The notes below the pieces were generated by a model. It worked only from the letters and a program-made list of their open reading frames with translations. It was not told where the DNA came from and did not search any database. From assembly GCF_003474435.1 (NCBI RefSeq), contig NZ_QRNF01000054.1, positions 1 through 18,488 of the forward strand: a stretch of DNA of 18,488 bases. The letters run 5' to 3'. A program made the translations under genes and the position numbers. Positions 1-13,158 of the stretch are shown here, one piece after another; the first letter of the stretch is position 1; every line of letters starts with the position of its first letter. The DNA is from Ruminococcus sp. AF46-10NS. GTDB taxonomy: Bacteria; Bacillota; Clostridia; Lachnospirales; Lachnospiraceae.

Positions 1-5
1 GCATT

Positions 6-169
6 ATCAATAGCACTTTCCATTGATTGATCTAATATCATCATTCTTATTATCATATTCTCGTAAGCAAAATTTCTGCATGGTTAATCAATAGCACTTT
101 CCATTGATTGATCTAATATCATCATTCTTATTATCATATTCTCGTAAGCAAAATTTCTGCATGGTTAAT
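6..169. repeat. 81-bp tandem duplication, two copies
   Basis: Two adjacent identical 81-bp units (6-86 and 87-167; the match continues to 169). 81 is a multiple of three, so the duplication does not itself shift frame. On the minus strand each unit encodes an open stretch beginning MQKFCLREYDNKNDD and ending NGKCY followed by TGA. The unit therefore spans the 3' end of the TIR-like gene and the sequence just after it. Confidence 0.95.
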
Positions 170-739: not shown

Positions 740-933
740 ATGCGCCCTTCTTCCTGATATAAATCAAAAAAACTTCATTACACCTGCCTCGGTATATCCA
801 CATGTCAAGAAACAGGCAATTCAATTATTTACCACGACCACCCTACTAAAGCAGGATCATTCGTTCTATAATAAGTCATCCACTTTCCATTCACCTAATT
901 CGTCTGCAATATCGGTATATGAAATATTTTACA

Positions 934-1425
934 TTATATTCCAAATTCCGCCTTTAACTCATCTATAACATCATATGGAAAACACTCTGCACAACCTTCA
1001 TCTTCCATCAAAACATTGATGATCTTTTTTGTCAGTTCTATTCCTTTGGTGCTATGAAGACGTTCTTCAATTCTTACCGCATTTTTTAGATCTCGTGCCA
1101 CCCACACCTGATCATATATTTCAAGTTGTGAGATAATCTTGCCTACTTCGCAAGAAAACTCCATTTCATTCATATCATTCGGACTACCCATAACTCGATA
1201 AATCTGTTGCAGTCTGCTCAATATCTGGTCGGCATTTAAATCCAGTGGTATGTAAATACGGACATTATCATCAGCTAGAATGCCTCCATTAGCGTGAATT
1301 TTACCAGTGATTGCCTTTTGATGTTGTTTTTTCGTCTCGTAACCAAAAGCAGTATCTGCAATTGAAAGATCATTGATATAAAGAACTTTCTCCGGAATTG
1401 GGTGAATATCTAAATCGTGATGCAT
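934..1425 (-). CDS. Conserved-looking hypothetical protein, 163 aa
   Basis: I do not recognise this soluble protein. It begins MHHDLDIHPIPEKVLYINDL and continues with a basic segment. A predicted alpha/beta part (YIPLDLNADQILSRLQQIYRVMG) is followed by an acidic C-terminal helix region ending in EDEGCAECFPYDVIDELK. No signal peptide or membrane segment is seen. An upstream in-frame ATG at 1440 exists, but GGAGG lies between the two ATGs and is correctly placed for the one at 1425, so I chose the shorter form. It follows the DUF3791/DUF3990 operon on the same strand, separated by about 75 bp that contain one GGGGTC-type palindrome. It may be independent of that operon. The 193 bp after its stop (741-933) hold no convincing gene. 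Confidence 0.7.
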   Translation of the reverse strand: MHHDLDIHPIPEKVLYINDLSIADTAFGYETKKQHQKAITGKIHANGGILADDNVRIYIPLDLNADQILSRLQQIYRVMGSPNDMNEMEFSCEVGKIISQLEIYDQVWVARDLKNAVRIEERLHSTKGIELTKKIINVLMEDEGCAECFPYDVIDELKAEFGI

Positions 1426-1469
1426 AATGAATTCCTCCATAATTTGAGTACTTTACTGATTTTTTTTAT

Positions 1470-1482
1470 GGGGTCTAACCCC
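1470..1482. repeat. GGGGTC palindrome, copy 1
   Basis: Core GGGGTCTAACCCC on the plus strand, preceded by TTTTTTTAT and followed by AATGTTC. One core base differs from the most common form. It lies just after the stop of the downstream DUF3791 gene. Same orientation as all other copies. Confidence 0.85.
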
Positions 1483-1501
1483 AATGTTCAAATTCCTGAC
1501 A

Positions 1502-1726
1502 TTAATTACAATCTATTACACCGCCACTGTATTCTTGTTCCAGTTCATCTGCCAAATACGCATCACTCATACAATGCATATCCGATACACCATCTCGAAT
1601 CAGTTGATAAACCTCAGAATGATAAAAAAAGTTCAACGCTTCATCTAGAGAAAGGCCCTGTTGCTTTGCAAAGAATTCAATGATACGACAGTATTTCTTT
1701 TGAAGCAAAATCGGATTTGCTGTCAT
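1502..1726 (-). CDS. DUF3791 family small protein (downstream copy)
   Basis: This 74-aa protein contains the DUF3791 hallmarks LSLDEALNFFYHSEVYQLI and SDMHCMSDAYLADELEQE. The family consists of short proteins of unknown biochemical function that are repeatedly found beside DUF3990 genes in Clostridia. The start ATG overlaps the stop of the DUF3990 gene by four bases (ATGA), so translation is probably coupled. An antitoxin-like or accessory role is suggested only by the arrangement. The length is typical and no defect is seen. Confidence 0.85.
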   Translation of the reverse strand: MTANPILLQKKYCRIIEFFAKQQGLSLDEALNFFYHSEVYQLIRDGVSDMHCMSDAYLADELEQEYSGGVIDCN

Positions 1727-2193
1727 AATTTTTCACTCCCCTCAAAATGCAGAAAAGATAACGCTTTTTCCGTACGAAAACAAATTTGCAAATTTGGCTT
1801 TTCATAGCGCAGGCGATTGATGGCTTCTTTTTTATCAATTAATCCATCGAAAAACAATTCTACTGTATTGAATACTTTATCGTTGGCAACGCCTCCTGCA
1901 ACAAGATCGTAATTTGTCAAATCCTTTCCACTACGGCAATTCAAGATAAAACCAAGCCATTCTTCAGAATAGGATTCAAATTTTAAAGTTTTCAGCTCGA
2001 CTTCTCGACTCTCATCAAATTCATACCTGGAAATAATGCCATTTTTTCCTCTGCGTTTAAACTTTCCACACCACTTTGCTGCCTGCTCATATAGTGGTGT
2101 AACATAAAAGCCACGTCCAAAATCTACATTGGGCCGGGAATGTATCAAATCTGGCTGTACAATCTCTAAAAAAGAGCCATGATAAAGAATCAT
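1723..2193 (-). CDS. DUF3990 protein, ADP-ribosyltransferase-like candidate toxin
   Basis: The 156-aa protein begins MILYHGSFLEIVQPDLI and has NVDFGRGFYVTPLYEQAAKWC (about 22-42). This is the conserved N-terminal block of DUF3990: a YHG strand followed by DFGxGFY, reminiscent of the H-Y core of ADP-ribosyltransferases. Later blocks are the W-containing FESYSEEWLGFILNCR and YDLVAGGVANDKVFNTVELF, also typical of the family. By family resemblance it may transfer ADP-ribose from NAD; the target is unknown and the activity is inference. It overlaps the upstream DUF3791 gene by four bases and the downstream DUF3791 gene by four bases, so the three are one translationally coupled operon. It is full length for the family. 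Confidence 0.85.
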   Translation of the reverse strand: MILYHGSFLEIVQPDLIHSRPNVDFGRGFYVTPLYEQAAKWCGKFKRRGKNGIISRYEFDESREVELKTLKFESYSEEWLGFILNCRSGKDLTNYDLVAGGVANDKVFNTVELFFDGLIDKKEAINRLRYEKPNLQICFRTEKALSFLHFEGSEKL

Positions 2194-2429
2194 ACTTCTA
2201 CCCCTCTTTCTTTCATTACCTCAAGGAGATCATTTACGATATATTCCCGACTCTGTGTATGCAGAATCTCATATTCCGGAACTATATAGCTATTCAGAAT
2301 ATCGCTTTTTTCTGTAAATGCCTGATAGACACGTTCTGCATTTACATTTAATTTTGCCGCTATATTTTCAATGCAAAATACAGCAAATTCTAGTTCATTA
2401 GAATTTTTGATTTTTTCACCTGCCAGCAT
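2190..2429 (-). CDS. DUF3791 family small protein (upstream copy)
   Basis: The protein starts MLAGEKIKNSNELEFAVFCI and carries NVNAERVYQAFTEKSDIL and a C-terminal EYIVNDLLEVMKERGV, the second common DUF3791 sequence type. A TTG six bases upstream (2435) is in frame, but GAGGAGG is best spaced for the ATG at 2429, giving 79 aa. It is the first gene of the three-gene operon. Having two divergent DUF3791 proteins flank one DUF3990 protein fits a tripartite toxin-antitoxin or immunity arrangement, although neither activity can be read from sequence. Confidence 0.85.
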   Translation of the reverse strand: MLAGEKIKNSNELEFAVFCIENIAAKLNVNAERVYQAFTEKSDILNSYIVPEYEILHTQSREYIVNDLLEVMKERGVEV

Positions 2430-2435
2430 AAACAA

Positions 2436-2727
2436 TTCCTCCTCATATAATCAAGTGTTTTTTATTGAAAATTCAAGGTTTTTCAACCTTTCATATTTCA
2501 GTGAATAAGCCACAGCTATGAGCATTTCAATGTATCAAGTACTGAAATAGTGGTTAAAGGGTATACGAAATAAAACGTCATTGATTTCCGCTTTACTGGC
2601 CTTGTGTGTACCTATCCCTCTATGGCAGCTAACCTTCCTGATATATTCTTTATGGAGTCTGACCCCAATGTTTTCCTTTCGCCAGTCTTAAAATAGCATT
2701 CATTGTCATAAATTCCTATTCCAACTA
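2436..2727. other. Intergenic region with palindrome copy 2 and the DUF3791 operon leader
   Basis: No gene is supported here. On the minus strand, near the DUF3791 operon, there is a short hairpin (AAGGTT, loop GAAA, AACCTT) followed by AT-rich TTGAAT-like sequence that could hold the operon promoter. The part next to the IS630 element matches nothing I can name. Confidence 0.5.
2652..2664. repeat. GGGGTC palindrome, copy 2
   Basis: Plus-strand GGAGTCTGACCCC, one base off the perfect arm, within CTTTAT...AATGTT as in copies 1 and 5. It lies about 65 bp outside the left end of the IS630 element. With copy 3 it brackets ribozyme copy A and the IS630 insertion. Confidence 0.85.
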
Positions 2728-3736
2728 TAGCAGTCCTCTTAATTAGTGCAAATACCACATGCACGAAACCACCCTCTGCAATCATTTGTGCTTACAGCTT
2801 CTAAGGCCGCTTTTACAGCTTCATGTAGTTCAGATACAATACGGATTTTTCTCTTTCTGAGAATGGATTTCATTTTTGACCACATTTTTTCAATTGGGTT
2901 TAAATCCGGACTGTATGGCGGTAAATACATATAGGAAATACCGGCTTTATCCAAAAGTTCTGTCACTATTTTGGCATGATGAGAACGCATATTATCCATG
3001 ATTACAACATCGTCTTTTTCAAGGCTCGGTATCAATTGTTCTTTCATATATTCACGAAATCTCTGTGCAGTTGTTCCACCTTAATATGTAGTATATACCA
3101 GACTGCCATTCAGACGAATAGATGACAAAACGGTTGTTCCGGCAGGTGTATTTATTGGGGTAGCGTCAATGGCACGTTTCCCATGTACTGCATGTGCATA
3201 GTGTCTTGTGAGATTTGTATTAATACCGCTTTCATCCAGATAGATTTGATGTTCTGGTTTTACACCAACTATATTTTCTATCCATGTTTTGCGTTTTATT
3301 TGCACATCGGGGACGCTCCTGTTCTTTTGCATGCAAAGACTTTTTCTTATAAGTATAACCTTGTTTTATTAAAAAACGCCTGACGGCTTCGTTGCCTACT
3401 GGTAAATGAAGGATTTCGATAATCTCATTCATTGTGATATCCGGTTGTTTTTGTACAAGTTCCAGAATATCCTGGTGTTGCTTTTCTGTAAGAATTGGTT
3501 TCCGTCCTCTCAGATACGTTCTGGTTTCATAACTTCCAATGCGTGTGCGTTCTTCTACAAGGCGGTATATGGTACTTTCATTTACCGAAAAATACTTTGC
3601 AATCTCCTTGGCATTGTGAGTTTTATCCCAGGCTTCCAATACCAGTTTTCTAGCTTCATTGTGTAGCATACTATCATCTCCTACACTATATTTTATCACC
3701 CCTGTAAAGAGATTGCATTATTTAAGAGGACTGCTA
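2728..3736 (-). mobile_element. IS630-family insertion sequence, about 1.0 kb
   Basis: Fifteen-base perfect terminal inverted repeats, TAGCAGTCCTCTTAA at 2728-2742 and its complement at 3722-3736, are flanked by TA on both sides (2726-2727 and 3737-3738). A TA target duplication is the signature of the IS630/Tc1 group. The stop codon of the transposase lies inside the left repeat. The element inserted 15-16 bp beyond the 3' end of ribozyme copy A. Because the transposase has a frame change and an in-frame stop, this copy is probably not autonomous. Confidence 0.92.
2739..3669 (-). pseudogene. IS630-family transposase, frameshift plus nonsense codon
   Basis: The first part (from ATG 3669, GGAG well spaced) is a helix-turn-helix region: LEAWDKTHNAKEIAKYFSVN, then RKPILTEKQHQDILELV. 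It ends in a different frame from the catalytic part. The frames join at a run of four C on the minus strand (plus 3309-3312), where skipping one C links KEQERP to DVQIKRKTWIENI. The catalytic part has IYLDESGIN, then VVIMDNMRSHH, then LPPYSPDLNPIEKMW, giving the complete DDE triad. Between the first and second Asp an in-frame TAA at 3081-3083 (TTY-stop-GGTTAQRF) interrupts an otherwise open frame and probably replaced CAA. IS630 transposases are sometimes expressed by frameshifting, so the first change could be natural; the stop codon is not. Confidence 0.9.
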
Positions 3737-3752
3737 TAATCAAACATTTCAT

Positions 3753-3825
3753 CTTCACATCTTAGCCGTCCATATAGACGTTGCCTGCTACTCACCACGG
3801 AGAGGTGTATGAAGATTTGAGCAGC
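3753..3825 (-). ncRNA. HDV-like self-cleaving ribozyme, copy A
   Basis: Read on the minus strand: P1 GCUGCUC, P2 CUUCAUA, P3 ACC, loop UCUCCGU, P3' GGU, P1' GAGUAGC, then AGGCAAC. P4 CGUC/GACG with loop UAUAUG follows, then J4/2 GCUAAGA and P2' UGUGAAG. This is the nested double pseudoknot order of hepatitis delta virus ribozymes. GCUAAG is identical to J4/2 of the antigenomic HDV ribozyme, with the C as expected catalytic base. The CC of the P3 loop can form P1.1 with the GG of AGGCAAC. Relative to other copies, P1 and P2 each keep pairing through a G-U pair, and P4 is changed on both strands but still pairs. The predicted cut lies between 3826 and 3825. Self-cleavage itself is inferred. Confidence 0.85.
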
Positions 3826-3828
3826 GTA

Positions 3829-3844
3829 GGGAGCTTCCGCTCCC
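3829..3844 (-). other. Hairpin just 5' of ribozyme A cleavage site
   Basis: Minus-strand GGGAGC-GGAA-GCUCCC, a six-bp stem with a GNRA-type tetraloop. It ends three nucleotides (UAC) before the predicted cleavage point. Upstream of it lies a smaller AT-rich hairpin AUUUC-UAAA-GAAAU, shared with copy D. Confidence 0.8.
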
Positions 3845-3890
3845 CTTGTTTTGTTTATAATTTCTTTAGAAATGTTTATTTTTTCTTTAT

Positions 3891-3903
3891 GGGGTCTGAC
3901 CCC
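3891..3903. repeat. GGGGTC palindrome, copy 3
   Basis: Plus-strand GGGGTCTGACCCC preceded by TTCTTTAT. The AraC fragment breaks off exactly at this copy. The sequence from here through ribozyme A is nearly the same as from copy 5 through ribozyme D. Confidence 0.9.
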
Positions 3904-4085
3904 GGAGTACTAAAGTAAAGAAATGAGGTCAGGTTCAATCTGGTCGATGTATGCTTGTGGATAGCCTGTAATGATCCAACCTCCTGCAGATGCAGTAACG
4001 ATGTCCGGGCAAACGTAGACGGTGTGTACAGGATTCGGGAGGAGGTCACAGACGAGGATTGTGGGTTGAACAATTCTTGGTCCAT
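3904..4085 (-). pseudogene. AraC-family regulator, N-terminal fragment
   Basis: From ATG 4085 (GAGGAG at good spacing) the frame reads MDQELFNPQSSSVTSSRILY, then TPSTFARTSLLHLQEVGSLQ, then HTSTRLNLTSFLYF. It then enters the palindrome (STPGSDP). The pattern ILYTPSxFAxxxLLHLQExGxLxxxxxHxSxR-LxSYLFF resembles, from memory, the N-terminal part of Lachnospiraceae AraC regulators with a cupin sensor. The rest of the sensor domain and the helix-turn-helix domain are absent, so this is a dead fragment of about 60 codons. The break coincides with palindrome copy 3. The family assignment rests on recalled pattern and should be searched. Confidence 0.55.
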
Positions 4086-4144
4086 ATTACGTCTCCTCAC
4101 CCTTTCTCTTCTATAGATTCCTAAATATCGTAGCCCTATCTGCG

Positions 4145-4735
4145 TCAATTAAAAATTTCTGCGTATTCGACATCCGCCAGTCGAATAGCAATCATACTTT
4201 TGTTGTCTCCTTTATGGCTTTCTAATTCCGTGTTGTCACTCTTGTTAAGTTTGACAAAACCAGTTAGTACAATCCATGAATCATCGCCTTTTTCTTCAAT
4301 ATTTCTATGATGACCCGCCACATAATAATCTTCCTCACGAATATACAACTTTAGATTTGAGCCATTACGCAAATCCAACACATCTCTCCAGATATTATCG
4401 TTCGGCGTTTTATGGAACAGTTTCACCATTACTTGTGAAAACCATTTGGCACAAAAAATCCAAGAAACAAATAATGCCAATAATGTTCCAAGTATTATGG
4501 AAATTCCAGACTTTCCCCACACTGAATTCTTAGTGAATCCGAGAAAAGAAATATTGGCTAATAAATCCGCAATTGACAAAAGGACATAGCTCACAACACA
4601 CGATAATATAGTTTGTGACTCTGCCCGTATCTCTTTTGAGCAAAAATATTTAAACACAGTTATGGCCCACAGACCAGGAATATAATATTGTAGTAATACT
4701 GGTATATTTTCAAGCATTTGCGAAATTGTTTCCAA
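4145..4735 (-). CDS. DUF6338-like membrane protein with C-terminal cytosolic domain
   Basis: 196 aa. Three hydrophobic segments lie near residues 10-30, 43-64 and 76-97. A soluble C-terminal part follows with NDNIWRDVLDLRNGSNLKLY, EDYYVAGHHRNIEEKGDDSW and ADVEYAEIF. This pattern (N-terminal membrane anchor, then an NIW-D block and a small beta domain) resembles the DUF6338 family, of unknown function. The start is taken as TTG 4735 because GGAAGG is eight bases upstream; the next in-frame ATG is six codons inside. It begins one base after the TGA of the 59-aa gene, so the two are coupled. A membrane protein beside a trypsin-like protease suggests a sensor or effector pair, but this is inference. 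Confidence 0.65.
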   Translation of the reverse strand: METISQMLENIPVLLQYYIPGLWAITVFKYFCSKEIRAESQTILSCVVSYVLLSIADLLANISFLGFTKNSVWGKSGISIILGTLLALFVSWIFCAKWFSQVMVKLFHKTPNDNIWRDVLDLRNGSNLKLYIREEDYYVAGHHRNIEEKGDDSWIVLTGFVKLNKSDNTELESHKGDNKSMIAIRLADVEYAEIFN

Positions 4736-4736
4736 C

Positions 4737-4916
4737 TCAATTACCTTCCTGCTCAGTTGTCACTTTGTTAGTAGTGTCAGCAGCCTTTTCCTCTGAAGGC
4801 TTTCCCAGCATCCGATTCATATCGAGCGGCTTTGTCGCGTTTGACTGTAAGGAAAAGTCCATTGTTTTAGGCTTTTCATTGCTCGGATTCTTAAAAGTAT
4901 CTTTTTCAGAGCTCAT
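4737..4916 (-). CDS. Small hydrophilic protein, 59 aa
   Basis: A short gene. ATG 4916 is preceded by GAAGGAGAATACAT and the TGA is at 4737-4739. The product is charged and low in hydrophobic residues: it starts MSSEKDTFKNPSNEKPKTMD and ends NKVTTEQEGN. No domain is recognised and the sequence looks disordered. The good ribosome binding site, the position between the protease and membrane protein genes and the one-base gap to the next start support a real gene. It might be an adaptor, or a substrate of the neighbouring protease. Confidence 0.65.
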   Translation of the reverse strand: MSSEKDTFKNPSNEKPKTMDFSLQSNATKPLDMNRMLGKPSEEKAADTTNKVTTEQEGN

Positions 4917-4983
4917 ATGTATTCTCCTTCTTTAGTTATAAAAATATCGACTTGAGTTTAATCATTCATGACTATGCACATAT

Positions 4984-5811
4984 TTATTTTATGGTTCCGT
5001 TTAAAACACCTTTTTCTATAAAATTTTGAAATTCACATAATTCCTCGGCTTTGATATAGTACCCCAGATTTGTCATTATGCTCGTATTTGATTCAACAAC
5101 TTGCTTCGACGTAGGTATTGTCTTAACGACAATTTCACCTCTTGCATCATATTGTGGACCCGCATAAAGTATTCCAAGTAGCAATATTCTAGATGTTCCA
5201 AAATAAGAATTACCACGCTTATCTCTATATCCGCCTTCATTTAAAATGAAAATTGGTGATCCCGACGATCCCGGAAAACACGCCATATCCACAAGGCCAA
5301 TTCCATCATCATTAAAATCCACAGCCGGATGTGCAGAAGTATACCCTTTTCTGAATATCGGATAATTGTTTCTAGTGTCTGATAGACCAATTGGATATCC
5401 AACCATAACAAGTTCTTCGAGAGCCGACAACTCTTGGAGTTTTTCTCTTGTTGCCATGATACTTGCATCATTTGCAATAAAGAAAACATCTTTTCCGTAT
5501 GCTTTTTTTACACCTTCAAATACTGGATTTACGAATGTAAAACATAAATCTTTTGTCGAGTGAAAATACCAATGCGCGTTCATTTTAATACCAATACTAG
5601 TATTTGATTCACCATTTTCTTCCCTTAAATGAAGGTGAAACTTAACATTCTCATCCTGTTTATGATTAACCACATGCTTATTTGTGATAATGGTAGGGTA
5701 TATATTTTCACCAACCTTGAAGTTATAAAAGAAGCCTGTTCCCATTCCTGATTCTGTTTCTAAGCGAACTGTATTAAACATCAGTTGTTCTGAAATAGAT
5801 TCTGGTTTCAC
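4984..5811 (-). CDS. Trypsin-like serine protease
   Basis: A chymotrypsin-fold protease of about 275 aa. The catalytic residues are visible: His in IITNKHVVNHK (about 46), Asp in HSTKDLCF (about 88) and Ser in CFPGSSGSPIF (about 183, GxSG). GMGTGFFYN near the N-terminus matches the family's GTGF strand. There is no signal peptide or PDZ domain, so it probably acts in the cytoplasm, like protease modules of several defence systems and unlike secreted HtrA enzymes. The open frame begins with TTG at 5826, but that codon overlaps the GGAGG; GTG at 5811 is eight bases after it and is the better start. Ribozyme copy B ends only 26 nt before the start. The 59-aa and DUF6338-like genes follow on the same strand. 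Substrate unknown. Confidence 0.88.
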   Translation of the reverse strand: MKPESISEQLMFNTVRLETESGMGTGFFYNFKVGENIYPTIITNKHVVNHKQDENVKFHLHLREENGESNTSIGIKMNAHWYFHSTKDLCFTFVNPVFEGVKKAYGKDVFFIANDASIMATREKLQELSALEELVMVGYPIGLSDTRNNYPIFRKGYTSAHPAVDFNDDGIGLVDMACFPGSSGSPIFILNEGGYRDKRGNSYFGTSRILLLGILYAGPQYDARGEIVVKTIPTSKQVVESNTSIMTNLGYYIKAEELCEFQNFIEKGVLNGTIK

Positions 5812-5837
5812 TTTCACAACCTCCAAATATTATTTTC

Positions 5838-5910
5838 CTTCACATCCCAGCCAGTCATAAGACCGTTGCCTGCTGCTCACCACGGAGAGGTATGTGAAGA
5901 TTTGAGCAGC
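5838..5910 (-). ncRNA. HDV-like self-cleaving ribozyme, copy B
   Basis: P1 GCUGCUC/GAGCAGC (7 bp, perfect), P2 CUUCACA/UGUGAAG (7 bp, perfect), P3 ACC/GGU with loop UCUCCGU. AGGCAAC, P4 CGGUC/GACUG with a UUAU loop and J4/2 GCUGGGA follow. All parts occur in HDV order. It lies between the stop of the 395-aa membrane protein gene and the start of the protease gene. The predicted cut is between 5911 and 5910. The ribozyme would remain as the 5' end of the protease mRNA, 26 nt before its start codon. Confidence 0.85.
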
Positions 5911-5912
5911 TA

Positions 5913-5932
5913 CCGTGTGATTAATCACACGG
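5913..5932 (-). other. Hairpin just 5' of ribozyme B cleavage site
   Basis: A 20-bp perfect palindrome: CCGTGTGATT and its complement. It ends two nucleotides (UA) before the predicted cut. After cleavage it would cap the 3' end of the upstream transcript. Confidence 0.8.
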
Positions 5933-5973
5933 CCTAAATTTTCATTCCAAGGTTCTATATTTAGATGACCTTC

Positions 5974-7161
5974 TTATTTCTCTCTCAATTCCATCTGTTT
6001 CTTCAATTTCTTATCTAACCGTCTTTTTTCGTGCTCATATGTGCCAATTGACATAATATCGTCAATTGGTTTGTTTGCAGATTCGCTAAAATATCTTATC
6101 ATCATTCCATAATAAGGTTTTTTCATAATGCTTTGTTCAAGAATGTCTATGCTTTCAGCTATTTTTTGACAAGACTCACTTATCACCCAACTCGTAAACG
6201 GTATTTCTTCCTGTTCCATTTGCTTGTCCATGATTTCACTTTGCCTTCTGAACATTTCTTCGTCCTCCGGCTCAGAAAAATCAACATCATCATAATCTAT
6301 ATCTTCTGGCTCTACCTCTACCTTTGCTTCTGCCTTGTCCAGTTCATCTTTGTAAGCATCAATTCCCTCTTGCGATATTTCGTAATTTTCCATATACTGT
6401 GAAAGCAGTGTAAAATCCGAAAGAATTGCCTCTACATATCGCTCACAGGCTTTTTGGCTTTCCGCGCTAGACAGGGATTTTCTTATCCATGTAGGCATGT
6501 TTTTCAGAACATCATTCGGATATATTGATGCCAAATAATTCTCATCTGGATGGTTAAGCGCATCATAATACATTGGAGACATCATAATTCGTCTGTAAAT
6601 AAAAGACTGTATCTGTTTATATTCTGAAATAACACTTTGCAGTTCATCAATTTCTATATCACTCAGAAATTGTTTTTTGTCATTGAATGTCTGCTTAAAG
6701 ATAGGCATCATTTTTGGCAGACGTTCCCATGTTATCTGAATAATATCCTTCGGTTGGTCATATTCATCGATTTCTTCTATGCCACCTGCAGCAACAAATT
6801 CTTCATGTGCCTTCTTCTCGGCACGCCGGTGCGGAGTCAATTTCATCATGATTTGTTTATGGCTTTCATAATCCATAACAGTCGAATAATACTCTTTTAA
6901 TTCATACCATGCCAGTTTGTTATGTCTATAATTATTGCTTAGTTCAACAACGAACGATACGAAAAAGGACGCAACCGCACCAGTAGTCAAAGCAAATACA
7001 ATATTGTAAAATCCTGATCCTTCTGGCGTTAGTGCCATCGCTACACCGAGTATTGTAACAACGATCACCGAAAATATCACACATGCAACTAACGTTGTTT
7101 TTGGATAAAACGCAAACGATAAAAAACGCAACGTTTCATTAAATCTGTTCTTAAATCTCAT
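5974..7161 (-). CDS. Membrane-anchored protein of unknown function, 395 aa
   Basis: I recognise no named family. Two membrane segments lie near residues 20-43 (TTLVACVIFSVIVVTILGVA) and 52-73 (IVFALTTGAVASFFVSFVVE). A long helical, probably cytosolic domain follows, rich in charged residues. It contains a strongly acidic linker (PEDIDYDDVDFSEPEDEEMF, roughly 283-305) and ends in a basic coiled helix (HEKRRLDKKLKKQMELREK). This design, two helices plus a large helical domain, is common in proteins that sense or assemble at the membrane. The start is ATG 7161 with a modest AGAAAG upstream. It is flanked by ribozyme copy C (74 nt upstream) and copy B (downstream), so it forms a ribozyme-bounded segment of the minus-strand gene series. 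Confidence 0.75.
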   Translation of the reverse strand: MRFKNRFNETLRFLSFAFYPKTTLVACVIFSVIVVTILGVAMALTPEGSGFYNIVFALTTGAVASFFVSFVVELSNNYRHNKLAWYELKEYYSTVMDYESHKQIMMKLTPHRRAEKKAHEEFVAAGGIEEIDEYDQPKDIIQITWERLPKMMPIFKQTFNDKKQFLSDIEIDELQSVISEYKQIQSFIYRRIMMSPMYYDALNHPDENYLASIYPNDVLKNMPTWIRKSLSSAESQKACERYVEAILSDFTLLSQYMENYEISQEGIDAYKDELDKAEAKVEVEPEDIDYDDVDFSEPEDEEMFRRQSEIMDKQMEQEEIPFTSWVISESCQKIAESIDILEQSIMKKPYYGMMIRYFSESANKPIDDIMSIGTYEHEKRRLDKKLKKQMELREK

Positions 7162-7235
7162 ATCTGCTTTCTACCTATTACGATCGACCACTCATTTCCT
7201 TGACAGGTCAGAGCATCCTTTAAATATTAACCTCT

Positions 7236-7307
7236 TTCACATCTCAGCCAGTCATAAGACCGTTGCCTGCTGCTCACCACGGAGAGGTGTGTGAAGATTT
7301 GAGCAGC
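7236..7307 (-). ncRNA. HDV-like self-cleaving ribozyme, copy C
   Basis: P1 GCUGCUC/GAGCAGC perfect, P2 UUCACA/UGUGAA (6 bp; the outer pair seen in copy B is lost), P3 ACC/GGU with loop UCUCCGU. AGGCAAC, P4 CGGUC/GACUG and J4/2 GCUGAGA follow. The predicted cut is between 7308 and 7307. It lies between the BCCT transporter stop and the 395-aa membrane protein start. Confidence 0.85.
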
Positions 7308-7309
7308 TA

Positions 7310-7331
7310 CCGTGTGAGATTACTCACACGG
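7310..7331 (-). other. Hairpin just 5' of ribozyme C cleavage site
   Basis: Stem CCGTGTGAG/CTCACACGG, nine bp, loop TAAT (minus strand), ending two nucleotides before the predicted cut. Compared with copy B the apex is changed, yet the stem is kept. Confidence 0.8.
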
Positions 7332-7372
7332 CCTTTTATTCAATTATACTACCGACTCACACATTTCTCCAG

Positions 7373-8731
7373 TTATTTATCACCTTTTTCTTTTGCCGAC
7401 TTTTCCAAACTTTTCATGTATTTTTTAGCATCCTTCATAAAGCTGACAGTAATCATCACAATAACCGCACCGATTGGAAATGCAGCAACGATACTTACAG
7501 ACTGAAGATTATTCATAGAACTTTCCGCAAACAGCAATGCAATCGGCAGCAGAATCAGAAGAACGCACCACATAAGCTGAATTCCTTTATTCGGTTGTTC
7601 ACCATCTTCCAACTTGTGATAACTATAGCAAGACGCAGTCAGTGCGATTGAATCAAAAGATGTCGCATAGAAGGCAATCATCGTCAAAAGCACAACCACC
7701 ATAATGACCGGTGCGCACGGCATTGTTTTTATGATGCTTACAATCATTCCGTAAAGGTCACCATCAGCCATATACTGTGCAATAAAGTCTGCTTTTCCTG
7801 TAACCTGCATACCCATTGAGTAGTTTCCAAGCACAACAAAGCTCGTCAGAGTTGAGCCAACACCAAATACATAACCACCAAGAATCGTCTGACGCACTGT
7901 TCTGCCACGAGATATATTTCCGATAAAGAACGGAGCTGCCACGCACCATACCATCCAATATGCCCAGTAATAGATTGTCCAGTTCTGTGGGAAGTTAGAA
8001 GTTCTAAGCGGATCAGTAAAGGTCGACAAATCAATGAAATTCTGGATCATCTTACCCAAAGATGCAAATCCAGTCTCAACAATATAGCGTGTTTCTCCAC
8101 CGAATAAAAGGACAAAGGCAATCAGACCAAAGAACATATAAATACAAATGTTAGCCAACTTGCTAATTCCCTTAAATCCATGCAGCAAGGAATAAGTATA
8201 TACAGCACAAGTAATCAGAAGAATAATAATATTAATCACAGTACGGCTAATTGCAACATGGAACAGTTCACCAATAATTGTCGCCATCAACGGAGTTGCA
8301 ACACTGAATGTAGTCGCAGTACCAGCAAGAAGTGCAAATACAGCCAAAAGGTCAATAATTCGGCCAGCCCATCCATCTGTATGCTTTCCCAAAATCGGGC
8401 GGCAAGCTTCTGAATACTTCTGACGATTTCTTTTTCTTACATGAAGCATAAAGCCAAATGCAACAGCCAGCACAAGATAGAAACCCCAAGGAATAAAACT
8501 CCAATGGAAAAGCGGATATACACCTGCCCAATCCTGAATGCTCCCCATTTCCGCAATATGCGGATCAGTTGCGTACAACACCCATTCAGAGAAAGAATAA
8601 AATAAAATGTCTGCTGCAAGACCGCAGGTGAACATCATAGAGCCCCATGCAAAAAAGGAGTACTTCGGTTTCTCATCCGGCTCGCCGAGAACAATGTTTC
8701 CGTACTTCGATCCGGCAATATAAAGTGAAAT
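7373..8731 (-). pseudogene. BCCT-family betaine/choline/carnitine-type transporter, N-terminal part deleted
   Basis: Open BCCT coding sequence begins directly after palindrome copy 4 (ISLYIAGSKYGNIVLGEPDE) and continues without a break to the stop at 7373. Family marks include FYSFSEWVLYATDP, then WTIYYWAYWMVWCVAAPFFI and ISRGRTVRQTILGGYVFGVG, the transporter core containing the aromatic substrate box and the conserved SRGRT motif. BCCT proteins exchange or import trimethylammonium compounds across the membrane. About 450 residues remain of the usual 500 or so. The first two membrane helices are missing and no start codon with a ribosome binding site precedes the remaining frame; the ATG at 8638 is internal. 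A likely N-terminal remnant lies across the palindrome (8752-8807). Substrate cannot be assigned. Confidence 0.88.
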
Positions 8732-8738
8732 TCTTTAT

Positions 8739-8751
8739 GGGGTCTGACCCC
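8739..8751. repeat. GGGGTC palindrome, copy 4
   Basis: Plus-strand GGGGTCTGACCCC preceded by TTCTTTAT. It separates the probable BCCT N-terminal remnant from the BCCT body. With copy 5 it brackets ribozyme D. Confidence 0.9.
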
Positions 8752-8807
8752 GGTACCTTCCTTTTTACATTTACTTGCTTTTTTGTTCTTCTTGCTTTAA
8801 CATTCAT
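8752..8807 (-). pseudogene. Probable BCCT transporter 5' remnant
   Basis: ATG 8807 has AGAGG at good spacing and opens MNVKARRTKKQVNVKRKV, a short basic tail of the kind that precedes the first helix of BCCT transporters. The palindrome follows at once, and the BCCT body resumes beyond it in another frame. If this is the true N-terminus, some 70 codons covering the first two helices were lost at the palindrome. The assignment rests on position and basic character, because the tail is too short for homology. Confidence 0.45.
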
Positions 8808-8810
8808 CTT

Positions 8811-8881
8811 GAATACCTCTTGTGTTTTTAGATTTTACCAACTGGCAGGTCAGTAATAATCTAAATTTACTTGAGGTATTC
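8811..8881. other. Long interrupted hairpin in the BCCT leader
   Basis: Nested inverted repeats: GAATACCTC (8811-8819) with GAGGTATTC (8873-8881), TTTAGATT (8827-8834) with AATCTAAA (8858-8865), and TTAC (8835-8838) with GTAA (8853-8856). On the plus strand it is followed by a T-run, so it could terminate plus-strand transcription. On the minus strand its 3' arm overlaps the AGAGG ribosome binding site of the BCCT start, so it could hide that site. Confidence 0.6.
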
Positions 8882-8941
8882 TTTTTGGTCAATTCCCTTT
8901 ACTCTTTAAAGTATACAGGAAGCTCCTATCCAGAGTTGCAT

Positions 8942-9014
8942 CTTCACATCTCAGCCAGTCATAAGACCGTTGCCTGCTGCTCACCACGGAGAGGTGTTGA
9001 TTCATTCGAGCAGC
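8942..9014 (-). ncRNA. HDV-like ribozyme, copy D, probably impaired
   Basis: P1 GCUGCUC/GAGCAGC, P3 ACC/GGU with loop UCUCCGU, AGGCAAC, P4 CGGUC/GACUG, J4/2 GCUGAGA and the P2' strand UGUGAAG are all present. The P2 5' strand CUUCACA has been replaced by GAAUGAAUCAA, leaving at best UCA-CA/UGUGA with a bulge. Without P2 the double pseudoknot is weak, so this copy is likely slow or inactive. An open frame (9119-8889) happens to run through it because the upstream MT-A70 frame stays open. Confidence 0.7.
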
Positions 9015-9017
9015 GTA

Positions 9018-9033
9018 GGGAGCTACCGCTCCC
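9018..9033 (-). other. Hairpin just 5' of ribozyme D
   Basis: Minus-strand GGGAGC-GGUA-GCUCCC, three nucleotides before the predicted cut. It matches copy A apart from one loop base. The AT-rich small hairpin AUUUC-UAAA-GAAAU lies further upstream as in copy A. Confidence 0.8.
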
Positions 9034-9079
9034 CTTGTTTTGTTTATAATTTCTTTAGAAATGTTTATTTTTTCTTTAT

Positions 9080-9092
9080 GGGGTCTGACCCC
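9080..9092. repeat. GGGGTC palindrome, copy 5
   Basis: Plus-strand GGGGTCTGACCCC within TTCTTTAT...AATGTTC. The MT-A70 frame breaks off here. Confidence 0.9.
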
Positions 9093-9213
9093 AATGTTCT
9101 GCAATTCCTCAATGCTCATGGTGGGATAATGATTTTCCGCCGCGCCCTGTACTTTTTTAGCTGAGTAGCGCCACGGCGGGTCAGCGTAAATGATGGGGTA
9201 CTTTTCGATAGCT
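9093..9213 (-). pseudogene. MT-A70 family adenine methyltransferase, N-terminal fragment
   Basis: The frame reads AIEKYPIIYADPPWRYSAKK, then AAENHYPTMSIEELQNI, and then meets palindrome copy 5. YADPPW is the catalytic DPPW motif of MT-A70 N6-adenine methyltransferases, and HYPTMSxEEL is the typical following block of phage-borne members. The rest (about 130 residues) is absent. No ATG, GTG or TTG is seen at the expected start beside the TAG of the preceding methyltransferase; the frame begins at ATA. It follows the DNA methyltransferase fragment with overlap, an order common in prophages. Confidence 0.8.
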
Positions 9214-9619
9214 ATTCTCCTTTCCCGCCCTCGGCCACGGCCAGCCGCGCCTGCTCGATGCGCTGGGCGGCGATGGTATAGATGGATGGGGCATTTTCAA
9301 AGCAGATGAAACGGCGGCCTGTGTTCATGGCGGCAACGGCAGTCGTGCCGCTGCCCGCGCAGATGTCCGCCACCACAGCTCCACGGGCTTTTGCGTGGGA
9401 TGGATGCCGCCCGTCACCGTCGGCACGAACAGCACATTTCCCGGATAACGCCGCCCATCGCTGGACTCTGAGCCTGTCCGTTCAAACTTGCCGTAGTTTG
9501 TACTGCATCCGCTGCGGGGATTGGTCTTGCGGTACGGCTCCCCATAGGTGAATTGCGGATGGTACACCGGGGACTTCTGATAGAACACCAGAATGTTCTC
9601 GGACTTTTTCAGCGGCGCA
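9212..9619 (-). pseudogene. DNA methyltransferase (N6/N4 type), C-terminal fragment with frameshift
   Basis: The fragment starts just after palindrome copy 6 with NAPLKKSENILVFYQKSPVY, then HPQFTYGEPYRKTNP, then GIHPTQKPVEL. After a change of frame, ADICAGSGTTAVAAMNTGRR follows and it ends QARLAVAEGGKGE-stop. HPTQKPVEL plus AGSGTTAVAAMNTGRRF are the conserved C-terminal motifs (SAM-binding region) of site-specific DNA methyltransferases of the PF01555 type found in phages. The usual stretch of about a dozen residues between KPVEL and ADICAGSGTT is missing, so a small deletion has also shifted the frame. The catalytic DPPY/NPPY half is absent. The GC content is clearly higher than in the surroundings, a sign of transfer. 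Confidence 0.8.
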
Positions 9620-9627
9620 TTCTTTAT

Positions 9628-9640
9628 GGGGTCTGACCCA
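9628..9640. repeat. GGGGTC palindrome, copy 6
   Basis: Plus-strand GGGGTCTGACCCA preceded by TTCTTTAT; the last C of the core is changed. It joins the methyltransferase fragment to an IS66 fragment. Confidence 0.85.
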
Positions 9641-9849
9641 CTGTGTGTGGTGTGGTGTGTGGAAACCGGCCGCTGCGCGGGACTCATCCCATCGTCCTCT
9701 TTGACTGGCAGCCTTCCCGTCATTCTGACCATCCGCGGGAATTCCTGAAGACATTCTCCGGAACTGTGATCACGGATGGATATCAGGTCTACCATAAGCT
9801 TGCAAAAGAACGCCGTGATCTTAAAGTAGCAGGCTGCTGGATCCACGCC
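9641..9849 (+). pseudogene. IS66-family transposase, internal fragment
   Basis: The plus-strand frame THPIVLFDWQPSRHSDHPRE, then FLKTFSGTVITDGYQVYHKL and AGCWIHA matches the central DDE region of IS66 TnpC (usually ILYDYQPxRxxxHPxxFL, then DGYxxYxxL and AGCWAHARR). The first codons appear shifted in frame near 9680. The match ends at CWIHA and continues into unrelated AT-rich sequence. No IS66 ends or companion genes are present, so it is a scar. Besides the small 15352-15603 debris, it is the only recognisable plus-strand coding sequence in the window. Confidence 0.85.
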
Positions 9850-9909
9850 ACGCAAGAATATTCAGTTAACAGCCTACTATTCTTCCAAAATATCTACAGC
9901 ATCCACCTT

Positions 9910-10215
9910 TTAATCTTCGTCTACCCTTTTATATTTTTGTTTTGCATTTTTTAAAGATTCCTCATAGCACTCTAATATTCCATTCGCCCCTTCAATGATA
10001 GATAAACCAATTGCAAATCCTATAACATATCTTTCTGACCAGGATTTATTAAAAAAACTAATCAAATTCACAGCCGCTGAATAAAAATAAAACATCCCTT
10101 TAAATCCATAAACTGTTGCTAATTTAGAATGATCCTCTCTTCTTTTTCCCATAATCAAGCTCACAGCAAGAATTATCGGAATAACTAAATATGTCAAAAC
10201 AAATTCTATATCCAT
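9910..10215 (-). CDS. Hypothetical membrane protein, 101 aa
   Basis: Not recognised. It begins MDIEFVLTYLVIPIILAVSL, one clear membrane helix. Two weaker hydrophobic stretches follow (FYFYSAAVNLISFF and IGFAIGLSIIEGANGI) before a basic tail (EESLKNAKQKYKRVDED). ATG 10215 has AGAGGAGATAATC at ideal spacing. It lies 42 bp after the FHA gene on the same strand, so the two, together with the disrupted membrane protein gene upstream, probably form an operon. Confidence 0.7.
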   Translation of the reverse strand: MDIEFVLTYLVIPIILAVSLIMGKRREDHSKLATVYGFKGMFYFYSAAVNLISFFNKSWSERYVIGFAIGLSIIEGANGILECYEESLKNAKQKYKRVDED

Positions 10216-10257
10216 GATTATCTCCTCTAACCCAATCGATAAAACAGTTGAAGATAA

Positions 10258-10767
10258 CTACTCATTTTCCAAACTTACTTGAAATTCAGTTTCCCCCATA
10301 CTTATCATTGAGTCTTTAGTTAATTTAATAGGCGTCTGTGCTGGTATCTCTTTTCCATCCACATAAGTATGATTTGTACTATTGCAGTCTGTAATAAATA
10401 CATTTCTATTCTTACAAAATATATTTGCATGATACCGGGAAACTCGTCTATCTTCAATATACACATCTGACAGTTCGTTTCGACCAACAGTTATCAGTTG
10501 TTGGTCTTTGAAATTTTCAGTCTTATCGGTTTCTTTTCCGGAAATTTTCAAAAACTTTACCTGTATTTTTTCCCTACCAATGTATGCCCCACCCAAATCA
10601 ATCATCGCTTCAGTACGCATATTTCTTTCAAAATCTATATCAGATTCGTTTTCCTCTTCCTTTTTCAAATGCGCCAATTTTCTAATTTGGTAAAAAGTAC
10701 ATATAAGAACAACAAGCCAAAATATTCCCGAAAAAGCAATTGCACCGTCATTTACATTCTTCAGCAT
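10258..10767 (-). CDS. Membrane-anchored FHA-domain protein
   Basis: 169 aa. An N-terminal membrane segment (GAIAFSGIFWLVVLICTFY, about 8-27) precedes a charged linker and a C-terminal forkhead-associated domain. The domain shows the phosphothreonine-binding pattern LITVGRNELSDVYIEDRRVS, RYHANIF, CNSTNHTYVDGKEI and the late SMGETEFQV strand. FHA domains bind phosphothreonine proteins, so this is probably a membrane-tethered partner in Ser/Thr kinase signalling; no kinase gene is in the window. TTG at 10782 is in frame, but GGAGG is placed for ATG 10767. It overlaps the preceding membrane protein frame by 20 bp. Confidence 0.88.
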   Translation of the reverse strand: MLKNVNDGAIAFSGIFWLVVLICTFYQIRKLAHLKKEEENESDIDFERNMRTEAMIDLGGAYIGREKIQVKFLKISGKETDKTENFKDQQLITVGRNELSDVYIEDRRVSRYHANIFCKNRNVFITDCNSTNHTYVDGKEIPAQTPIKLTKDSMISMGETEFQVSLENE

Positions 10768-11205
10768 AATAGCCTCCAACAAATTGTGAAATACCAGTTA
10801 ATATAAAACTTCCACCGCCAAAAGAATATATTAAAAATTTGCACGAAGCCAGTTCTTCATCAGTTAGTACTTCACCTCTAAAATCCTTTATGTATACATA
10901 CCCATAAAATATACAAAAAAACACAAATACAAATGCCATTGTATATTTTTCAACTTTAACTAATGCGTTTTCATGTATTTCTATTCCTACCTGATGTTCA
11001 AATAAAACAGGTGTTGCTATTCCGAAAAAAAGGCTGCAATCTCTGTAAGCCCTCCTCCTGATTTCTGAACACCAAACATTACACATAACATAATATATAA
11101 CAATAAGGGAAATCCTGACAAAAAAACGGTAAATATAAACCATTTTCCTAAATTTTTGAAACCATTTCGAAATGCTTTATATTGTGTCTTTAATTTCTCG
11201 CTCAT
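10748..11205 (-). pseudogene. Membrane protein gene split by a frameshift at a T7 run
   Basis: From ATG 11205 (AGAAGG eight bases upstream) the frame encodes MSEKLKTQYKAFRNGFKNLG, a membrane helix (FIFTVFLSGFPLLLYIMLCV) and GGGLTEIAAFF. It then stops at TAG because of a run of seven T on the minus strand (plus 11025-11031). The -1 frame continues naturally with ATPVLFEHQVGIEIHENALV, a second helix (MAFVFVFFCIFYGYVYI) and a third glycine-rich one (GGGSFILTGISQFVGGYY), ending at 10748. One additional T would restore a protein of about 150 aa. This may be decay, phase variation or sequence error. No family is recognised. It is the first gene of the FHA-containing group. Confidence 0.7.
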
Positions 11206-11210
11206 TAATG

Positions 11211-11298
11211 TGCCTTCTTTAACTTTTTCTCGCAAAACATGAAATATGAAAAAATGCCTTCTTTAACTTTTTCTCGCAAAACATGAAATATGAAAAAA
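11211..11298. repeat. 44-bp tandem duplication upstream of a membrane protein gene
   Basis: Two identical copies (11211-11254 and 11255-11298). Each contains AAAGAAGG (minus strand), the ribosome binding site of the gene starting at 11205. The duplication therefore copies the translation initiation region and spaces the promoter 44 bp further away. Confidence 0.93.
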
Positions 11299-11558
11299 TA
11301 CCTCAATTATCTGCTGCTTAAATTTCTTATATTTGCTCTTTAAAATTAACAATTATTTTTATTATTGTACTACTTTTTATCTACAATTTCACTTCTCTTT
11401 TATCGACAAAGTTCGACATGCCAAATACCATTTTTCTCAAATTAACTTTCTAAAGTGCTGTGCTATTTTTTTACTGGCATCTTTCGATGCCAGTTTATAA
11501 AAAACGCCCGAGTCAAACTTTATGGAGTAGCCCCATGCTACGCATAATCTATGCTTCA
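11299..11558. other. Intergenic region with one stable hairpin
   Basis: No gene is seen. A nine-bp hairpin ACTGGCATC/GATGCCAGT lies at 11473-11494 with a four-base loop (GAAA on the minus strand). On neither strand is it followed by a clean U-run, so it is not a standard terminator. Around 11518 a short sequence weakly resembles the GGGGTC palindrome but is too altered to count. Confidence 0.6.
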
Positions 11559-12915
11559 TTACCTTATCGCATACTCCAGTTCTTTTCGCTTTTCCAATTT
11601 CAACAAACTCTTCCCCTCCCCCTGTTTCTTATATATCCTATCACTCAGCAGAATATCAATAAATCCTTCCGAATAAGATGCAGCTTCATATACATCAAAA
11701 TAGATATGGACTCCTTCCGGATCCACAAACCATTTCTGTTATGGTAATATTCCAAAGTAAAATCTTCCATTATATAGGGTCTTCTATTCGTATTTTTGCA
11801 TATAGCCTGTTCTTCTTTCAACCTTCTCGCCGCAAGTTCAAGTATCCTATCCTCTGGTAGATTCATCACGTCCTTCAACCCCAATTGTCGTCCTGTAGAC
11901 AGATCAAATGTCATAATATTCCATATTGGAAGTCCATGACAGCCGCCTGTATACCGGTATCGGGAAAAACGAATACAGAGAATTGATGCCTGATTTAATA
12001 ATATTTCAAATCCTATGCCGTCAAAATATGGTTCTTTCTCACCGTCTATCATTTTTTCCAGCTCTTGTTTCCGACCAATCCATTCTTCTTTTACATCTTC
12101 ATAATAATTACGAATGCAACTGTTGATATACTTCAAAGCACAGGGTTCTTCATCCAGACCAACTGCTTTCACCACAGGTAAGGTCCAGACTGTATTTATC
12201 ATTACCCGATCGTTATCATAAATTTCCCACTCTTTTTCCTGGACAACGATTTCTACTTCCTCCAATCCGCTTTTCTCAGAAAATTCTATAATATTCTGGC
12301 GCACTTCTTCCGCATCATGATAAAATAGTATTTTTTGCCCTGTATTTTCCTCAAAAAAATTGTAAAGCCACTTTTTATTCTCATTACCATGAAAAATCTT
12401 ATCCTTTGTCACGAAAATATAATCTGCAGGATGCTCTTTCGCATAATCAATCAACGAAAACCAAATTACTGCATCCTTAAATTCTTTATCCGCTTTTCCT
12501 TTTACCCCTTCGAATGGAGGCAACTTTTTTATAGAAGTTTCAAGTATATTTTGGAACTGAGCATCCTTACAGACTGGTAATATCTCAATCTTTTCCTCTG
12601 CAAGATACTGATCTGCCTGTCTGCGCAACTCAATTTCATATTCATCCGGAGTATACCGAAAATCAAATGAAAAAGATCTTTTAACTGCATCGCATATTGT
12701 TCTACGGTATCATATACCTTTCGATATGCTTCTATCTCATGCTGCAACAATTCGCGGTATACCAATTCTGGAAGCAACACCTCACATTTATCAATACATT
12801 TCTTATTTCTTGAGAGATCATACATCTCATAAAAATCTGAATTCAGTTCAAATTTTTCCAGATTCTTATATTTTGAAATATTTAAAAAATTTGTATCCAG
12901 TGAAATATAAATCAT
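11559..12915 (-). pseudogene. PIN-domain plus DUF3298-domain protein, two frameshifts
   Basis: ATG 12915 follows AGAGG and overlaps the stop of the preceding frame. MIYISLDTNFLNISKYKNLE is the first PIN strand with its acidic Asp-Thr-Asn. CEVLLPELVYRELLQHEIEA is the second conserved block. The frame is then lost at four A on the minus strand (plus 12679-12682); the -1 frame continues KRSFSFDFRYTPDEYEIELR and carries the PIN C-terminal Asp block (FKDAVIWFSLIDYA, YIFVTKDKIF). The layout resembles the DUF4935 (PIN_12) family. Residues from about 260 match DUF3298 (YRYTGGCHGLPIWNIMTFDL, TGRQLGLKDVM). Near 11733 a second -1 change leads to VDPEGVHIYFDVYEAASYSE, the true DUF3298 end, stopping at TAA 11559. 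The intact protein would have about 450 residues: a candidate ribonuclease fused to a beta domain also seen in RsiV/PdaC-type proteins. Confidence 0.8.
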
Positions 12916-13150
12916 TTCTTATCCTCTATAACCTCATAGTAATACATATGTACTACCATCAGAAACTTGTGTATTCTATGGCCATTATGATTTTGTTTCA
13001 AAAACGTAAGCACCTGCACAGCATTCCGGAAACATTTTATGGATAACAACTGTGCCGAACAGGTAATCCGACCTTTTACCATTGGTCGAAAAAACTTTGT
13101 AATGACCGAAGCCTCCAACGGTGCAAAGGCAAGCGCAATATTGATGACCT
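12912..13150 (-). pseudogene. Small open frame between ptuB and the PIN gene, possibly a remnant
   Basis: The frame is open from just after the ptuB stop: SYQVINIALAFAPLEASVIT, then RNAVQVLTFLKQNHNGHRIH and finally MVVHMYYYEVIEDKK. Its TGA overlaps the PIN start as ATGA. That overlap suggests real translational coupling. The candidate starts are poor: TTG 13118 coincides with a GGAGG-like string, and ATG 13082 has no site. I recognise no domain. It may be a short real protein or the end of a gene that lost its 5' part. Confidence 0.35.
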
Positions 13151-13158
13151 GATAACTG

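Follow-up and report, generated by a model that had tools for sequence, protein, structure and literature searches.

The ribozyme array and its genes

The stretch of DNA analysed here (hereafter the window) comprises 18,488 nucleotides (nt) from Ruminococcus sp. AF46-10NS (contig NZ_QRNF01000054.1, positions 1 to 18,488) and carries, spread head-to-tail over 5.3 kb of its minus strand, four copies (A to D) of a ribozyme resembling that of hepatitis delta virus (HDV), each with a predicted hairpin in front of it. It is argued below that copies A to C may act as RNA-processing sites between genes. In the direction of the minus strand, on which all features of this paragraph lie, copy D (8942..9014) is followed by a gene for a BCCT transporter (7373..8638; PF02028, 2.2e-100) of which the N-terminal part is absent (profile positions 83-484 of 485) and which stands directly upstream of copy C (7235..7307). 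The cargo of copy C (i.e. the gene behind it) encodes a 395-amino-acid (aa) protein without a Pfam or PADLOC match (5974..7161), starts 73 nt past the ribozyme and has its stop codon 63 nt short of the point where copy B (5838..5910) is predicted to cleave. The cargo of copy B is a trypsin-like peptidase gene (4984..5826; Pfam PF13365, 1e-8; PADLOC PDC-S45, 1.5e-94), the first listed start of which lies 11 nt past the ribozyme with GGAGG in between, and a relative of it (64% over the aligned DNA) stands right behind a ribozyme in genome G010. The copy B unit further holds two open reading frames (ORFs), one of 59 aa (4737..4916; an ORF only) and one of 196 aa (4145..4735; N-terminal part hydrophobic by eye, no Pfam or PADLOC match), before copy A (3753..3825) is reached.

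Identity and folding of the four copies

A cmscan search of the whole window with curated thresholds returned four matches, all to Rfam family RF02682 (HDV-F-prausnitzii) and none to any other family, with full-length alignments and E-values of 1e-12 or better. This is the covariance-model check that had been proposed in the initial annotation for its identification of HDV-like ribozymes, and at 81.1 (A), 75.6 (B), 85.3 (C) and 78.5 bits (D) all four copies lie above the gathering score of 44 bits. The four minus-strand copies listed there are therefore all genuine family matches, with the correction that copy C starts at 7235 instead of 7236. P1 (7/7 pairs) and P3 (3/3 pairs) form in every copy, and P4 is rebuilt between copies as had been described (CGGUC/GACUG in B, C and D; CGUCU/GGACG in A), while the sequence reported for the J4/2 junction of copy A, GGCUAAGA, is present 3' of P4. 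P2 had been claimed for all four copies and holds for A, B and C (in C it is short of one terminal pair), with D lacking it; the claim that P1 and P2 vary solely through G-U compatible bases fails at the outermost P2 pair of copy C, which is C-A. All of P1 to P4 are thus formed in copies A and B, and cleavage is predicted at 3826/3825 (A), 5911/5910 (B) and 7308/7307 (C).

In copy D, the 5' segment GAATGAATCAAC is unable to pair with the tail TGTGAAG, hence the missing P2, and since the structure line of the Rfam family does not contain P2 the high score of this copy masks the loss. Its 5' half resembles that of genome G258 (GCTGCTCGAATGAATC) and its 3' half that of copy C, and from its sequence copy D looks like the product of a crossover between two ribozymes; it is probably inactive, i.e. 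a degenerate relative with no place among the working members.

All four copies, which can be aligned in register with a similarity that ends at the ribozyme 3' end, were recovered by a model built here from 20 training sequences (copies A and C among them). Copies A and D share a 157-nt repeat (89%) that includes ~80 nt of extra sequence upstream of the ribozyme, and the upstream hairpin of B and C is different from that of A and D. Searched against plasmids, positions 3745-3910 gave no match; against phages, positions 7235-7340 gave two partial matches, in unannotated records. When relatives of the window were searched for, the best match reached 69% over about 435 of 1355 bases.

Conservation of the fold among relatives

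The comparison set consisted of 75 copies, 71 from 38 genomes and four from the window. Of the first genome set, 29 genomes had been selected for carrying the pattern; nine of the 39 initial stretches were not carried into the genome set, seven of them lying in genomes already included and the others being L004 and L014. The six pilin-associated matches below the cut-off (see below) are excluded from the 75, the two sub-cut-off matches of G041 are included, and G689, G483 and G750 were inspected outside the set.

Within this set, P1 has seven pairs in 63 copies, six in 11 and five in one, and P3 has 3/3 pairs in 74/75 (the expected form being 3 bp with a 7-nt loop). P2 reaches at least 5 bp in 68/75, with 36 pair types (4-bp calls counted), and in two of the seven misses (G444 and G422:1724561), which have a long P4 loop, the parser seems to have erred. 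In a register-free test on the 75 copies, the mean P2 score was 5.33 and fell to 2.98 when tails were exchanged between copies (maximum of 200 swaps 3.69). The parser called P4 in 75/75 copies and 35 types, at least three of these calls being doubtful (two GATCT/GGATT, one GCTGG/CCAAT). In HDV-like ribozymes the C of J4/2 is the catalytic residue. A C stands 3' of P4 in 4/4 window copies and in 73/75 as parsed; the remaining two were apparently misread by the parser, and G021:5174, counted among the 73, is degenerate and its parse doubtful. For P1.1, the J1.1/4 strand reads AGGCAA in 67/75 copies and GAGCAA in the pilus relatives, which is very little variation for a pairing test with L3.

A wider alignment of 20 sequences bears out the pairing proposed from the window, P1, P3 and P4 being 99.0% paired over 300 cells. 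The covariation score of this alignment was 0.505, compared to 0.180 +/- 0.020 after shuffling (0/500 shuffles as high) and at most 0.106 when slid, and 51 cells were changed on both sides against a shuffled mean of 14.6. By a weaker measure, seven pairs have both-side changes, a number reached in 39/500 shuffles; in P1 such changes occur at two positions. Three loci (L109, L111 and L078; G004:C42, G010 and G021:C73:2471) carry an insertion of ~21 nt in J1/2, possibly a hairpin of its own (ATCAAAAATCTTTTTGAT type), because of which the Rfam match begins within the insertion.

Above the cut-off, RF02682 occurs in 11/397 genomes of the family of G021 and in 11/31 genomes of Faecalibacterium, the genus of G003. 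In IMG/VR three matches were found, one of which (L042) is of the same locus type as described below (ribozyme, one gene, ~109-aa gene, VOC-like gene).

A predicted hairpin in front of the cleavage site

In the window, RNAfold predicts minus-strand hairpins at 3828..3845 (-13.8 kcal/mol), 5912..5933 (-14.3 kcal/mol) and 7309..7332 (-17.9 kcal/mol), which end 2, 1 and 1 nt before the cleavage sites of copies A, B and C, respectively, and one directly 5' of copy D (9017..9034; -13.8 kcal/mol). In the comparison set, a stem with a score of at least 5 and a 3' arm no more than 5 nt from the cleavage site was found for 67/75 copies, in 43 distinct stem sequences, compared to 448/2464 upstream and 340/1757 downstream control sites (18-19%) that passed the same score. 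With a score of at least 7 the counts were 40/75 versus 55/2464 and 39/1757. Likewise, a folding energy of -6 kcal/mol or lower was obtained for the 32 nt preceding the site in 70/75 copies versus 94/525 controls (medians -12.7 and -3.1 kcal/mol). The stems include GGGAGC/GCTCCC, GCCGTGTG/CACACGG, GCCATG/CATGGC, CGCCTGCA/TGTAGGCG and CCCCGCC/GGTGGGG, and so many unrelated sequences imply that it is the structure that is conserved and not the sequence. An intrinsic terminator of the upstream operon was considered and rejected for this hairpin, since a run of T is as a rule absent 3' of it on the ribozyme strand (by eye); a few copies do have three to five T there (by eye).

Layout and borders of similarity

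The commonest layout consists of polysaccharide-side genes, the hairpin, the ribozyme, at least one variable gene, a gene of ~109 aa and, behind the latter, often a gene that we take to be VOC-like. The ~109-aa gene has a promoter-like leader, and its start motif lies within 6 kb behind 33/75 copies. Ten picked polysaccharide-side genes gave Pfam matches to SIS/glutamine amidotransferase, nucleotidyltransferase, VanZ-like, BCCT, mutase, pyruvyl transferase, UDP-sugar dehydrogenase and DegT aminotransferase families, with one gene remaining without a match. Neighbouring copies no more than 10 kb apart are co-directional in 21/21 cases (16 arrays). With a simple ORF caller, a same-strand ORF starts within 150 nt downstream of 57/75 copies (median 33 nt) and one ends within 150 nt upstream of 55/75 (median 44 nt), and such short distances from stop codon to ribozyme to start codon leave little room for a promoter in the copies with close neighbours.

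When loci were compared in pairs, 194 pairs (41 copies from 29 genomes, the window counted as one, in 8 groups) were alike over more than 150 nt upstream only, with a median identity of 84% and with the 45 longest spanning the full 1200 nt compared. Relative to the 3' end of the ribozyme, the point at which these pairs cease to be similar ranges from -42 to +65 nt (median 4.5). Conversely, 45 pairs (31 copies from 21 genomes, in 9 groups) were alike downstream only, with a similarity that begins between 76 nt before and 16 nt behind the cleavage site (median 24 nt before it, at the hairpin). Copy C provides an example, as it has 519 nt of upstream sequence in common with Faecalibacterium longum G020 (83%) while the cargo differs, being a Schlafen/AlbA_2 cluster gene in G020 and the 395-aa gene in the window; copy D retains the first 19 nt of the G020 leader.

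Empty sites were found as well. In G224 a VanZ-like gene is followed by the ~109-aa gene, with hairpin, ribozyme and cargo all absent, and by eye the locus ceases to resemble the filled ones at the point where a hairpin would start; G028 has a second junction of this kind. None of another ten loci with a VanZ-like gene (L139-L148, each from a different genome, including one at 85%) has an RF02682 match.

Cargo genes and defence

For a scan with PADLOC (threshold E ≤ 1e-3), 40 cargo proteins were hand-picked, 37 from located clusters, one from L042 and the other two from G689, some of them being encoded by an ORF that comes second to fourth after the ribozyme; family c24 was entered twice (both without a match), and c195 and c196 (both matched) are perhaps pieces of one split gene. 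The control consisted of 10 hand-picked polysaccharide-side genes, nine before a ribozyme and one (GlmM-type, L108) behind. Of the cargo proteins, 17/40 matched, 10/40 at 1e-10 or better, as opposed to 0/10 of the control. Among the matches are KwaA (2e-62) and KwaB (1.6e-107) of Kiwa, PycTM (7.7e-34) and PycC (1.6e-92) of Pycsar, AbiH (2.2e-32), AbiGii (5.9e-12), PDC-S15 (FRG domain; 2.5e-12), PDC-M28C (3.3e-18) and two AAA ATPases (AAA hits being generic). The PDC models of PADLOC stand for candidate rather than proven defence systems.

A gene of the phosphoglucomutase/phosphomannomutase family (Pfam; labelled GlmM here) stands directly behind 5/75 copies, two of these genes being partial ORFs, and the downstream-sharing group that contains it comprises nine copies. 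At several loci a gene with SIS and glutamine amidotransferase domains (Pfam; labelled GlmS here) precedes the ribozyme.

The 395-aa cargo of copy C has 325 homologues, with named sources that include Ruminococcus and Holdemanella, and among the 120 homologues listed (P0001-P0120) none has a precomputed Pfam domain; structure prediction of this protein was of no use (mean pLDDT, the predicted local distance difference test, 39.1).

Relatives between pilin and sortase genes

Nine matches fell below the cut-off of 44 bits, and six of these (G222, G085, G306, G042, G391 and G019:C65; L178, L180, L181, L182, L183 and L193; 34-42 bits) have a backbone-pilin gene on one side and a sortase gene on the other, as identified by Pfam for examples (PF16569, PF17802 and PF00746; PF04203) and by tblastn for all six. 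P1 to P4 are present (by eye), and a strong hairpin precedes 6/6, five with scores of 7.0-11.4 and the sixth seen by eye. The model built here scores G019:C65 at 58.4 and G391 at 44.7 bits, both being outside its training set; the wider model R1 found no additional genome among 324. Of the remaining sub-cut-off matches, two are in G041, and the third, in G750, is degenerate and follows a VanZ-like gene. In G041:C7 (L115 and L116), ribozymes stand between or behind consecutive genes of ~1950 aa at a spacing of ~6.6 kb. What the settings have in common is the order of gene, hairpin, ribozyme and gene.

Other features of the window

Ten window proteins were covered by the PADLOC scan. On the minus strand, it identified a Septu-type pair (13159-15305; PtuB-like 6.2e-37, PtuA-like ATPase 4.6e-136) as well as a TIR effector-like protein (134-739; 2.9e-32) and a DUF3990/PDC-M13B protein (1723-2193; 6.2e-72), so that the ribozyme array is situated among predicted defence genes. 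An insertion element, presumably of the IS630 type, lies 14 nt 3' of copy A (2726..3738, minus strand), with its transposase in pieces (DDE_3 1.3e-21 for one piece) and terminal inverted repeats that are 92% complementary. The near-palindromic motif TTATGG(G/A)GTCT(G/A)ACCC, resembling repetitive extragenic palindromes, occurs six times on the plus strand (1466, 2650, 3887, 8735, 9076 and 9624); the units share one orientation, two of them lying upstream of ribozymes A and D and one near the start of the truncated BCCT gene. Two perfect tandem duplications (6-167, 81 nt; 11211-11298, 44 nt) are either recent or assembly artefacts.

Proposed mechanism

At least copies A to C most likely act as intercistronic RNA-processing sites fronted by a predicted hairpin. 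The ribozyme would be transcribed by read-through from the preceding operon and, judging from its family, would cleave itself 5' of the P1 guanine. The upstream messenger RNA (mRNA) would be left with the hairpin at its 3' end, followed by 0-5 nt and closed by a 2',3'-cyclic phosphate, and with this end being made by the ribozyme a terminator would be unnecessary. The downstream mRNA would start with a 5' hydroxyl and the compact fold of the ribozyme, from which shielding against 5' exonucleases is expected. In the window this would free two units, one of 1397 nt with the 395-aa gene (7307-5911) and one of 2085 nt with the gene for the trypsin-like peptidase (5910-3826). The genes behind the ribozyme would be swapped as cassettes, each made into a separate mRNA by the ribozyme, and the conserved ~70-nt ribozyme sequence itself may have been the region of crossover.

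Several observations weigh against processing as the function of these sites. The hairpin rule is failed by 8/75 copies (some having longer loops by eye, one mis-anchored by the script), and P2 is missing in copy D and lost or nearly lost in four others. Close same-strand ORFs are present on both sides at once in only 45/75 copies. Apart from the one-sided pairs, 17 pairs are alike on both sides and 1626 in the core alone, and the locus pairs compared are mutually dependent. In G029 a ribozyme stands without cargo before the next conserved gene. As to the cargo, 23/40 proteins are without a PADLOC match, and the control was a small and easy one. Finally, the hairpin might be a mere insulator of ribozyme folding.

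This last idea, that the hairpin keeps the upstream mRNA off the ribozyme and that the 3' end of the mRNA is without a separate function, seems unlikely as the full explanation. Genomic HDV has an upstream P(-1) hairpin that is insulator-like, and the conservation of structure instead of sequence, in a position that abuts the cleavage site, is what an insulator would show. Its stems, however, seem stronger than insulation would need (the median of -12.7 kcal/mol given above for 32 nt), and the order pilin, hairpin, ribozyme, sortase is left unexplained. Insulation and RNA processing may also be jointly at work.

Quite unlikely, in turn, is a metabolite-tuned switch in which glucosamine-6-phosphate sets cleavage and thereby controls the gene behind the ribozyme. 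The F. prausnitzii ribozyme is reportedly linked (by the title of a paper) to glucosamine-6-phosphate and the product of the adjacent gene, and both the GlmM-type gene behind five copies (with its group of nine) and the GlmS-type gene before the ribozyme at several loci fit such a role. Most of the 75 copies, however, stand before other genes, and ten named proteins of the pilin/sortase relatives have no such link. As a general role the switch was rejected, since the mutase gene is found behind a subset of copies only.

The repeat could also be the end of a mobile element, resembling either a miniature inverted-repeat transposable element or a retroelement, with the ribozyme freeing the RNA of the element. 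Several copies per locus would agree with this, as would the HDV-like ribozymes reported at the 5' ends of retrotransposons (PMC8256844). It is nevertheless very unlikely: the 3' end of the ribozyme itself is where the similarity stops, with different genes behind it, no reverse transcriptase was found among the 10 window proteins and 30 proteins of other loci given to Pfam, a target duplication was not seen at the empty site of G224 (by eye), and above-cut-off copies are uncommon (see the counts for the two taxa above). RtcB joins 5'-hydroxyl and cyclic-phosphate ends, as predicted for the products here. That tandem ribozymes excise gene-bearing RNAs which RtcB then joins into circular mRNAs is hardly tenable and was dropped, for although one window gene is flanked by two ribozymes, RtcB is present in only 8/27 carrier genomes checked (of 38).

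Relation to known ribozymes

The ribozyme family itself is already known. The copies share the covariance model, structure and core sequence of RF02682, and differ from the family as known in that the window holds four of them within 5.3 kb. The GlmM-type context of the F. prausnitzii ribozyme (Passalacqua 2017; discovery Webb 2009) was recovered as one subgroup (G003:C44, L108), whereas most copies here precede other genes. Searches of an open-licence library, from which most subscription papers are absent, brought up no paper that describes the upstream hairpin, the position at borders of similarity, the cargo of defence type or the pilus context.

The closest published functional analogue seems to be the theta ribozymes of gut phages, which, according to Kienbeck et al. 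2024 (PMC10879173), are HDV-like and often have their cleavage site beside the 3' end of a transfer RNA (tRNA), an adjacency from which it was proposed that they make this end. The likeness lies in a cleavage site next to a structured RNA. Theta ribozymes are minimal, without P4, phage-borne and linked to tRNA, while the copies here possess P4, lie in bacterial gene clusters and adjoin a hairpin; no tRNA was found in the window. With the HDV-like ribozymes at retrotransposon 5' ends, the copies would share the release, by self-cleavage, of RNA lying downstream in a longer transcript, but no retroelement was found among the proteins scanned here.

Significance

The recurrence of the hairpin-ribozyme layout in polysaccharide loci with varying cargo, between pilin and sortase genes and in the GlmM-type setting suggests one shared job, and the arrangement of these loci suggests that this job may be the protein-free cutting of one transcript into two protected mRNAs, a reading that is open to standard RNA end-mapping in cultured species. 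More tentatively, and at less than even odds, the portable combination of hairpin and HDV-like ribozyme could serve gut Firmicutes as a protein-free port for mRNA maturation, available to any gene recombined behind it: such a gene would share the transcript of a surface-polysaccharide or pilin operon and be released from it as its own ribozyme-capped mRNA, leaving the upstream mRNA with a ready 3' hairpin, so that the swapping of anti-phage defence cassettes would need neither promoters nor terminators, and this might be the general role of bacterial HDV-like ribozymes. If true, it would mean that anti-phage genes can be exchanged, promoter-free, beside surface-polysaccharide loci.

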